64,000 nucleotides of DNA from Cytophagales bacterium (GTDB lineage Bacteria; Bacteroidota; Bacteroidia; Cytophagales; UBA9547): NCBI GenBank assembly GCA_013297755.1, contig JAAFIH010000002.1, positions 62,001 to 126,000 of the forward strand. The letters run 5' to 3'. Both the position numbers and the translations under genes were made by a program. Below, piece after piece: positions 48,829 to 51,101 of the stretch; the stretch's first letter is position 1, and each line of letters opens with the position of its first letter. The notes beneath the pieces are model-generated. The model did no database searches. It saw only the letters and a program-made list of their open reading frames with translations, and was not told the DNA's origin.

Positions 48829-49800
48829 ATGAAAAAATTTACTTCAGTATCAGATGTCGTTGATGTAAATGCTCTTATCCATTCTGCCATATCTCTAAAA
48901 TCGAATCCTTTTTCTGACAAGAAACTAGGCGAAAACAAAACGATAGGTTTGATATTTTTAAATCCATCTTTGCGAACTAGATTGAGTACTCAAAAAGCAG
49001 CTATGAATTTAGGAATGAATGTTATGGTTATGAACATGGATAAAGAGGGCTGGGCTTTGGAAACACAAGAAGGAGCAATTATGAATCATACCACAGTTGA
49101 ACATATCAAAGATGCAGCAGCAGTCATGGGGCAGTATTGTGATATTATTGGCGTGCGTTCGTTTCCAAAATTAATAGATAAATTTGAAGATTATTCTGAA
49201 GATTTTTTTAATAAATTTATTACTTATTGTGGTGTTCCTGTTGTTAGTTTAGAAAGTGCAACATTGCATCCTCTTCAATCGTTGGCTGACTGCATAACTA
49301 TTGCTGAATGCACCAAAAACAATCCTAGATTTGAAAATAGAAAACCAAAAGTAGTACTCACTTGGGCACCACATATCAAACCTTTGCCACAAGCAGTGGC
49401 CAATTCTTTTGCTGAATGGATGTGCAAATCGGATGTTGATTTCTACATAACTCACCCAGAGGGTTACGAATTAGATTCTAAATATACAACAAATGCAAAA
49501 ATTGTATTAAACCAAGATTTTGCTTTAGAAAATGCTGACTTTGTTTATGTCAAAAATTGGAGTAGCTATCAACAGTATGGTAAGATTTTGTGTACTGATA
49601 ATTCTTGGATGCTTACAAATAACAAACTAAAAATTACTAATGATGCAAAAGTAATGCACTGTTTGCCAGTAAGACGAAATGTAGAACTTTCTGATGAGAT
49701 TTTAGATAGCCATCATAGTTTGGTTACTCAACAAGCCAACAATAGAACTTGGGCTGCACAGGCTGTTTTAAAATCTATTTTGGAAAATCATTGTTTATAA
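48829..49800 (+). CDS. argF': N-acetyl/N-succinylornithine carbamoyltransferase
   Basis: 323 aa from the ATG at 48829; the frame opens at a TTG 27 bp upstream that I reject. Carbamoyl-phosphate loop LNPSLRTRLSTQKAA (variant of SxRTR), HPLQSLADC, and the late HCLPVRRNVELSDE motif specific to the acetyl/succinyl-ornithine branch. Bacteroidota use this instead of ordinary ornithine transcarbamylase. The specificity position equivalent to Glu92 of the Xanthomonas acetyl enzyme or Pro90 of the Bacteroides succinyl enzyme falls, in my alignment, on Val in MNHTTVEHI, so the acyl group cannot be assigned. Confidence 0.9.
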   Translation: MKKFTSVSDVVDVNALIHSAISLKSNPFSDKKLGENKTIGLIFLNPSLRTRLSTQKAAMNLGMNVMVMNMDKEGWALETQEGAIMNHTTVEHIKDAAAVMGQYCDIIGVRSFPKLIDKFEDYSEDFFNKFITYCGVPVVSLESATLHPLQSLADCITIAECTKNNPRFENRKPKVVLTWAPHIKPLPQAVANSFAEWMCKSDVDFYITHPEGYELDSKYTTNAKIVLNQDFALENADFVYVKNWSSYQQYGKILCTDNSWMLTNNKLKITNDAKVMHCLPVRRNVELSDEILDSHHSLVTQQANNRTWAAQAVLKSILENHCL

Positions 49801-49816: not shown

Positions 49817-49849
49817 TTATCCACAATTACTTTTATAATTTGTGTATAA
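49817..49849. promoter_or_regulatory. Pair of inverted DnaA boxes upstream of dnaN
   Basis: TTATCCACA at 49817-49825 and its inverted counterpart TGTGTATAA (TTATACACA) at 49841-49849 both match the TTATNCACA DnaA-box consensus perfectly. They are followed by ~125 bp of AT-rich DNA before dnaN, with a weaker TTATCAAC at 49941. This could be a DnaA-regulated promoter or part of an origin. Confidence 0.55.
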
Positions 49850-49887
49850 ATTAAATGTTTATTTTTTTTATAATCACAATAAATAGC

Positions 49888-49895
49888 TACTTTTG
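49888..49895 (+). promoter_or_regulatory. Candidate -7 promoter element for dnaN
   Basis: TACTTTTG fits TAnnTTTG, 81 bp before the dnaN ATG and 39 bp after the second DnaA box. No -33 box is evident. Confidence 0.4.
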
Positions 49896-49976
49896 CAATT
49901 CTTTAGAATTTTAAATCAAAATATATTGTTTTAAAAACATTTATCAACTTAGTTTAAGCCAATTAAATCCTATTTC

Positions 49977-51101
49977 ATGAAATTTGTCATTTCCTCGTCC
50001 TCTTTGCTCAAGCAACTTAATTCAGTAAGTGGCGTTATTGCATCAAATCCTTTGGTTCCGATTTTAGAGAATTTTTTATTTGAAATAGACAAAGAAAGCC
50101 TTACTATCACTGCATCTGATTTGCAAACTACCATTATTACTCAATTATCGGTAGAAAGCAAAGAGGTTGGTAGTGTTTGTGTGCCTGCAAAAATACTGCA
50201 AGATACACTAAAAAACTTGCCAGAACAGCCTGTTACATTCAATATTGATGAAAGTACTTATGTTATAACTATTCGTTCTAACAATGGTAACTATAAATTA
50301 TCAGGGGAAAATGCAACAGATTTTCCCAAAATACCTGCAATAAAAAATGCTTCTAAAGTTGATGTGTCTTCAGAAATTTTATCAAAAGCACTTTCTAATA
50401 CAATTTTTGCTACAAGTACAGAGGATTTAAGACCAGCCATGACGGGTGTTTATTTTCAGTTAAATGAAACTAATCTTACTTTTGTGTCTACAGATGGTCA
50501 TAGATTGGTGCGTTATAGAAGAGTAGATGTGGCTTCAGAAAGTCCTGCTTCTATTATTGTGCCAAGAAAAGCCCTTACTTTATTAAAAAATTCGCTTCCA
50601 AACGAAAATTCTCCTGTTTCGATGGAGTTTAATCAAGCCAATGCTTTTTTTAGTTTCAATTCTACAAAATTGATTTGTAGATTGATTGATGAGCGTTATC
50701 CAGATTACGAAAATGTAATACCTCTTGATAATCCTAACAAGTTGGCCATTAATAGAATAGATTTATTGAATTGCTTAAAAAGGATTTCTATTTATGCTAA
50801 CAAAACTACACACCAAGTAAGATTAAAAATGACTGGGAGCGAGGTGCAAGTATCAGCAGAGGATTTAGATTTTTCAAACGAGGCTAACGAAAGATTGGTT
50901 TGTGAATTTACTGGCGATGATATGGAAATTGGTTTTAATGCTAAATTTTTGCTCGAAATGCTCAATAATTTAGATTCTGAAACTATTGCCATCAACATGT
51001 CTATACCAAGCAAAGCTGGTTTAATCAATCCAGTAGAATCAAACGAAAATGAAGATATTTTGATGCTCGTGATGCCTGTAATGCTTAATAATTACAATTA
51101 A
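49977..51101 (+). CDS. dnaN: DNA polymerase III beta subunit (sliding clamp)
   Basis: 374 aa. Three clamp domains; start MKFVISSSSLLKQLNSVSGV, then NPLVPILENFLFEI, TSTEDLRPAMTGVYFQ, FVSTDGHRLVRYR, LICRLIDERYPDYENVIP and the C-terminal ILMLVMPVMLNNYN (the usual end is M-x-M-P-x-R/M). It tethers polymerase to DNA. It is not accompanied by dnaA, recF or gyrB, as is common in Bacteroidota, and is closed by its own terminator. Confidence 0.97.
   Translation: MKFVISSSSLLKQLNSVSGVIASNPLVPILENFLFEIDKESLTITASDLQTTIITQLSVESKEVGSVCVPAKILQDTLKNLPEQPVTFNIDESTYVITIRSNNGNYKLSGENATDFPKIPAIKNASKVDVSSEILSKALSNTIFATSTEDLRPAMTGVYFQLNETNLTFVSTDGHRLVRYRRVDVASESPASIIVPRKALTLLKNSLPNENSPVSMEFNQANAFFSFNSTKLICRLIDERYPDYENVIPLDNPNKLAINRIDLLNCLKRISIYANKTTHQVRLKMTGSEVQVSAEDLDFSNEANERLVCEFTGDDMEIGFNAKFLLEMLNNLDSETIAINMSIPSKAGLINPVESNENEDILMLVMPVMLNNYN

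Follow-up and report, generated by a model that had tools for sequence, protein, structure and literature searches.

The region upstream of dnaN

The window discussed here is the whole stretch of 64,000 nucleotides that was analysed (G000:C12:62001-126000), taken from contig C12 of a Cytophagales genome (G000) of 4.24 Mb in 70 contigs. The gene of interest is dnaN, which encodes the beta sliding clamp of DNA polymerase III and which the preliminary description had correctly named, as its match to the TIGR00663 profile shows (Table 1). The best 80 named relatives of this dnaN come largely from genera that we take to be Cytophagales, and the closest among them belongs to the MAG “Cytophagales bacterium isolate PH2015_03D_30_9” (94% protein identity). 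The upstream neighbour resembles N-acetylornithine carbamoyltransferase genes. Elsewhere the two genes live apart: dnaN follows the carbamoyltransferase gene in none of the seven other loci inspected (of eight other genomes with a match), and they lie on separate contigs in all seven other genomes of the family where both were found. A conserved operon of the two was thus not seen, and the sequence between them sits at a junction seen only in G000.

This intergenic region, 176 bp long and about 82% A+T, carries two facing DnaA-type boxes. A strict box is defined here as TTATNCACA, a 9-mer with eight fixed positions, and each of the two boxes matches all eight. Their sequences, their inverted arrangement and their 15-bp spacing before dnaN are as first described, and so is the very AT-rich DNA that follows (82.7% A+T across 49850-49976). 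The looser third box reported nearby, TTATCAAC, is present, but boxes with at most one mismatch show no excess in the window (93 found vs. 122 expected from shuffles), so that it carries no weight and is probably not a genuine box. A search for further boxes in the region brought the number of strict sites in the window to four, the next one about 1.5 kb from the pair and within an ORF.

Table 1. Features at the dnaN locus, and boxes upstream of the winged-helix gene in the family
Feature	Location	Strand	Basis
N-acetylornithine-carbamoyltransferase-like gene	48829..49800	+	NF003384, 276.3 bits, below cut-off 288
Strict DnaA-type box 1, TTATCCACA	49817..49825	+	sequence match
AT-rich spacer, 15 bp, separating the facing boxes	49826..49840	.	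sequence
Strict DnaA-type box 2, TTATACACA (reads TGTGTATAA on +)	49841..49849	-	sequence match
Candidate -7 promoter element TACTTTTG	49888..49895	+	fits Bacteroidota TAnnTTTG (consensus as in the portion of PMC6847099 used)
Loose TTATCAAC within predicted 5′ UTR of dnaN	49941..49948	+	sequence
dnaN, DNA polymerase III beta sliding clamp	49977..51101	+	TIGR00663, 286.5 bits, cut-off 137.65
Winged-helix gene, G000: two strict boxes	50-80 bp upstream		
Winged-helix gene, G002: one strict and one near box	50-80 bp upstream		
Winged-helix gene, G003: one strict and two near boxes	50-80 bp upstream; another strict box at -218		
Winged-helix gene, G008: one strict and one near box	50-80 bp upstream		
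Winged-helix gene, G001: two near boxes, none strict	50-80 bp upstream		
Winged-helix gene, G004, G005, G006: scattered single near boxes only			

A predicted promoter and a conserved DnaA motif

Promoters of Bacteroidota are described as having a -7 element with the consensus TAnnTTTG and a weak -33 element, with transcription starting 4-5 nt downstream of the -7 element in probable promoters (PMC6847099, in the portion used here). The TAnnTTTG element of a sigma-ABfr promoter is found upstream of dnaN in G000 as TACTTTTG. Among 50 related genomes, 36 have it no more than 150 bp from dnaN, whereas the antisense strand gives 5/50 and shuffled sequences average 4.6 with a maximum of 10; these 50 upstream regions were taken from 57 genomes with a dnaN match, seven of which were not fetched. 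From the placing of TACTTTTG and this recurrence, transcription of dnaN is predicted to start near 49900. Strict boxes near the promoter, by which a DnaA-regulated promoter would be recognized, are likewise present: the pair ends 38 bp before the predicted -7 element, and about 67 bp separate its centre from the predicted start.

DnaA of G000, the protein that would bind there, was identified as TIGR00362 by a profile search of its C-terminal 310 residues. Aligned with 8btg, which we take to be B. subtilis DnaA, it retains the PRQ, LAK/LSR-type and GGRDHSTVIH segments (8btg has PRQ and GGRDHTTVIH), and it also matches 1j1v, presumably domain IV of the E. coli protein. The PRQ and GGRDHSTVIH positions are those that, we assume, contact DNA, and by alignment the helix-turn-helix motif is conserved. 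As for the 9-mer, 97 of the 194 genomes of the order, G000 included, have a convergent strict pair, vs. 14/194 for a reversed control pattern by table count. Taken with the large box arrays found in the order (see below), this makes TTATNCACA a credible candidate for the DnaA box of Cytophagales. Within the family only two of the ten genomes (G000 and G005) have such a pair, which counts against DnaA binding before dnaN.

Rarity and conservation of the pair

The pair could also be an accident, that is, two consensus-like 9-mers without function in a region of 82% A+T at a rearranged junction; that this junction is seen only in G000 suits such a reading. So does the count of the strict 9-mer, which is not enriched in the genome (229 sites vs. 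246 for the reversed pattern). Close strict pairs, with a gap of 0-30 bp, speak against it: G000 has three (two direct, one convergent and no divergent), whereas about 0.38 are expected with the three orientation classes summed. The pair before dnaN is the sole convergent strict pair with a gap of at most 30 bp in the 4.24-Mb genome, where about 0.1 would be expected, and among 60,000 random sequences as long as the region and with its base composition just four contained at least two strict boxes and none a convergent strict pair. The reversed control pattern however also yields one convergent close pair in G000, so that rarity alone is no proof of function. The pair is unusual, yet not beyond chance by itself.

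Conservation counts in favour of chance. None of the eight other family genomes with dnaN has a strict box in the 500 bp before that gene (one of them with only 373 bp available), and these eight include G001 and G002, which belong to the same genus as G000; close relatives thus do not keep the boxes at this promoter. More broadly, three of 50 related genomes carry strict boxes no more than 400 bp from dnaN (reversed control, 1/50), namely G000, G024 with two copies of TTATCCACA (L012) and G025 with one TTATTCACA (L026). Of the 80 named dnaN loci, 78 had enough sequence, and strict boxes are present in two of these, as two copies of TTATCCACA in a Sporocytophaga MAG and a single copy in a Cytophaga MAG, the reversed control also giving 2/78; the 50-genome and 78-locus sets overlap. 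The density of TTATCCACA upstream of dnaN is 0.096 per kb vs. 0.009 elsewhere in the same loci, a figure that comes from three sites in two loci.

In G002 the bases aligned to box 2 read TGTTTATAA, a single substitution away from the box, which again suits an accidental origin; the adjoining TATAAATTAAAT stretch is identical, and box 1 has no counterpart in the alignment. To judge from these comparisons the pair is lineage-specific, having been gained in G000 or lost in the sister species. The place of the pair is occupied in G002 by a long inverted repeat with arms of 19 bp by eye, about 136-180 bp upstream of dnaN (L004).

Against chance there is finally the position of the pair, at the promoter of a gene that is under DnaA control elsewhere (PMC8203912, in the part drawn upon). 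On balance, we give about an even chance to the reading that DnaA binds the pair and through it regulates the dnaN promoter, the pair not being an origin, and we hold chance, somewhat less probable, to be a serious rival and the next in line. The DnaA-controlled dnaN promoter of the preliminary description is plausible, strengthened on one side, by the predicted -7 element 38 bp downstream of the pair and by the conserved helix-turn-helix of DnaA, and weakened on the other, by the eight family genomes in which no strict box precedes dnaN.

If dnaN is regulated in this way, DnaA would occupy both facing 9-mers, some 50-85 bp ahead of the predicted start, and synthesis of the clamp would be tuned to the level or the nucleotide state of DnaA. 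Since the pair precedes the promoter elements, activation or a mild modulating effect would be likelier than simple occlusion. We infer such binding, the regulation and its sign from the arrangement of the sequence.

Operator, origin or RNA element

A third and rather improbable reading is that the pair is the operator of another dimeric regulator and resembles DnaA boxes by coincidence. The pair is indeed a dyad, with half-site centres 24 bp apart. Another strict pair of G000, two direct copies of TTATACACA at C9:73592-73622 (L048:9592-9622), lies upstream of a gene pair that looks like a putative PIN-type toxin-antitoxin operon, and these boxes are perhaps its operator. Another operator is likelier there, and TTATNCACA-type 9-mers can thus stand at other promoters too. 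What argues against coincidence at dnaN is that both halves fit the fixed DnaA-box positions exactly.

The preliminary description had also proposed that the pair might be part of the chromosomal origin, oriC, for which one could cite the facing strict boxes, the AT-rich DNA and the adjoining replication gene. This was examined by GC skew, the leading strand being the G-richer one. Raw skew is dominated by gene orientation and gives no clear signal, with no clear minimum at the site in 5-kb steps, so fourfold-degenerate sites were split by gene strand and the skew of minus-strand genes was subtracted from that of plus-strand genes, with ORFs called mechanically at 100 codons. The difference is +0.152 over contig C12 (172 ORFs), +0.100 to the left of the pair (95% interval 0.013 to 0.183, permutation p 0.031) and +0.195 to its right (0.082 to 0.301, p 0.001). 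An origin should give opposite signs on its two sides, so the same sign on both, with no switch of strand polarity at the site, disfavours the proposal; the test is modest in power, since contig C13 gives no fourfold signal at all (+0.036, p 0.56). Two strict boxes do not amount to a cluster of several, and dnaA lies on another contig, C35. There the sign is reversed to the left of dnaA (-0.283, 15 ORFs, p 0.012), with +0.096 to its right (10 ORFs, p 0.46), which is a mere hint.

Other families of the order have arrays that look far more like origins: G044 packs 17 strict boxes into 0.7 kb (L134:7870-8576) and G096 has 33 in 1.2 kb (L135:7911-9074), both of which we infer to be origins. In G044, a single contig, about 1.42 Mb separate the array from dnaN, which counts further against an origin beside dnaN, and the array is far from dnaA too. 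Genes flanking the arrays offered no route to the origin of G000, for 12 relative loci share flanking genes only within close pairs; when five G000 stretches were compared with these 12 loci, the dnaA of L137 was the sole clear match near a pair. The dnaN pair is most likely not the chromosomal origin, and the chance that it forms part of one is very small.

Least credible of all is an RNA-level element, such as a terminator of the upstream gene, since the dyad could form a stem in the transcript (-9.8 kcal/mol), but an A+U-rich one that folds no better than shuffles (21 of 200 fold as well, z-score only -1.22).

Boxes before other replication genes

In favour of a DnaA-binding regulatory site before dnaN, still the reading that we prefer, are boxes before replication genes elsewhere in the family. 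In G006, dnaA is preceded by TTATTCACA, ATATCCACA and TTATCCACA at -168, -157 and -145 from the first in-frame ATG (L214:6507-6538, C62), that is, by two strict boxes and one near box in tandem 137-168 bp upstream. Upstream of dnaA there is one near box in G001, none in G002 and no strict box in either, nor does a strict box occur in the 500 bp upstream of dnaA in G000; these absences count against the DnaA reading. In G008 it is dnaB (TIGR00665) that has two tandem copies of TTATCCACA, which repeat every 12 bp and lie some 150 bp ahead of the ATG used (L213:7723-7743, C141). In another family, G180 carries two facing copies of TTATCCACA between dnaA and a divergent gene, about 120 bp ahead of dnaA. 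Boxes upstream of dnaA are not a rule in the order: a strict box was found in only 1 of 27 loci, which span 500 bp before the open frame (fewer in some) and 150 bp into it, and which remained from 31 of 55 genomes with a dnaA match after four were dropped for want of the anchor motif.

Tandem boxes in G000 also precede a small winged-helix gene (C13:72040-72060, L049:10040-10060). Of 59 genomes, eight contain homologues of this gene, and all eight belong to the family of G000, which has ten genomes. Five of the eight have paired DnaA-type boxes 50-80 bp upstream (G000, G001, G002, G003 and G008; homologous loci outside G000 are L222, L223, L227 and L228), a raw count, and four of these five have at least one strict box (Table 1). 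The G000 protein gives weak PHROG matches to a family of unknown function (0.00041), to O-like replication initiation proteins (0.0017) and to DnaD-like proteins (0.0021); its G006 homologue matches replication initiation proteins (9.2e-06 and 1.1e-05), and the Pfam MarR_2 match is below cut-off.

These boxes, those of the winged-helix gene included, came to light post hoc in pattern searches with several patterns, the comparison covers these loci alone, and they are thus a lead only. A DnaA regulon in the family, with the dnaN pair as a possible member, is plausible. The more specific picture, of a regulon whose members shift between species (dnaN in G000, dnaA in G006, dnaB in G008) while the winged-helix gene is the more stable one and the dnaN pair a recent gain, we consider unlikely; in it, the winged-helix protein may itself be a replication factor, or its gene may lie at the origin.

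Comparison with known systems

Should the site bind DnaA, a dnaN gene lying away from dnaA would have re-acquired a control that other bacteria owe to having both genes in one operon, and the turnover of a replication regulon could be followed conveniently in this family. There is also a caution here, in that perfect facing boxes beside dnaN need not signal an origin. Among the titles listed for the chosen terms in one open-licence library, none dealt with DnaA as a transcriptional regulator in Cytophagales.

Compared with the origin-like arrays of the order, the dnaN locus shares the same 9-mer and the facing pairs, which also occur inside the arrays, but it has two strict boxes instead of 17 or 33 and no skew switch. 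DnaA regulates the transcription of dnaN in E. coli and B. subtilis (PMC8203912, in the part drawn upon), whereas such control is a prediction in G000. The likeness to the dnaA-dnaN operon promoters of these two species lies in TTATCCACA-type boxes at a promoter that drives dnaN (same source, same part); unlike there, dnaN of G000 stands apart from dnaA, has a predicted Bacteroidota -7 promoter, and carries a pair that is not conserved among relatives. In Borrelia burgdorferi, EMSA showed that DnaA binds upstream of replication genes, one of the sites, that of dnaA-dnaN, being oriC (PMC9879097, as far as the portion consulted goes); the G000 site, by contrast, is a candidate and probably not oriC. 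In both species candidate boxes lie in short stretches between genes, ahead of replication genes, those of B. burgdorferi being dnaX-ebfC, dnaE, dnaA/gyrB and dnaA-dnaN (PMC9879097, same portion). The dnaN pair is a known kind of element, and ordinary in kind.
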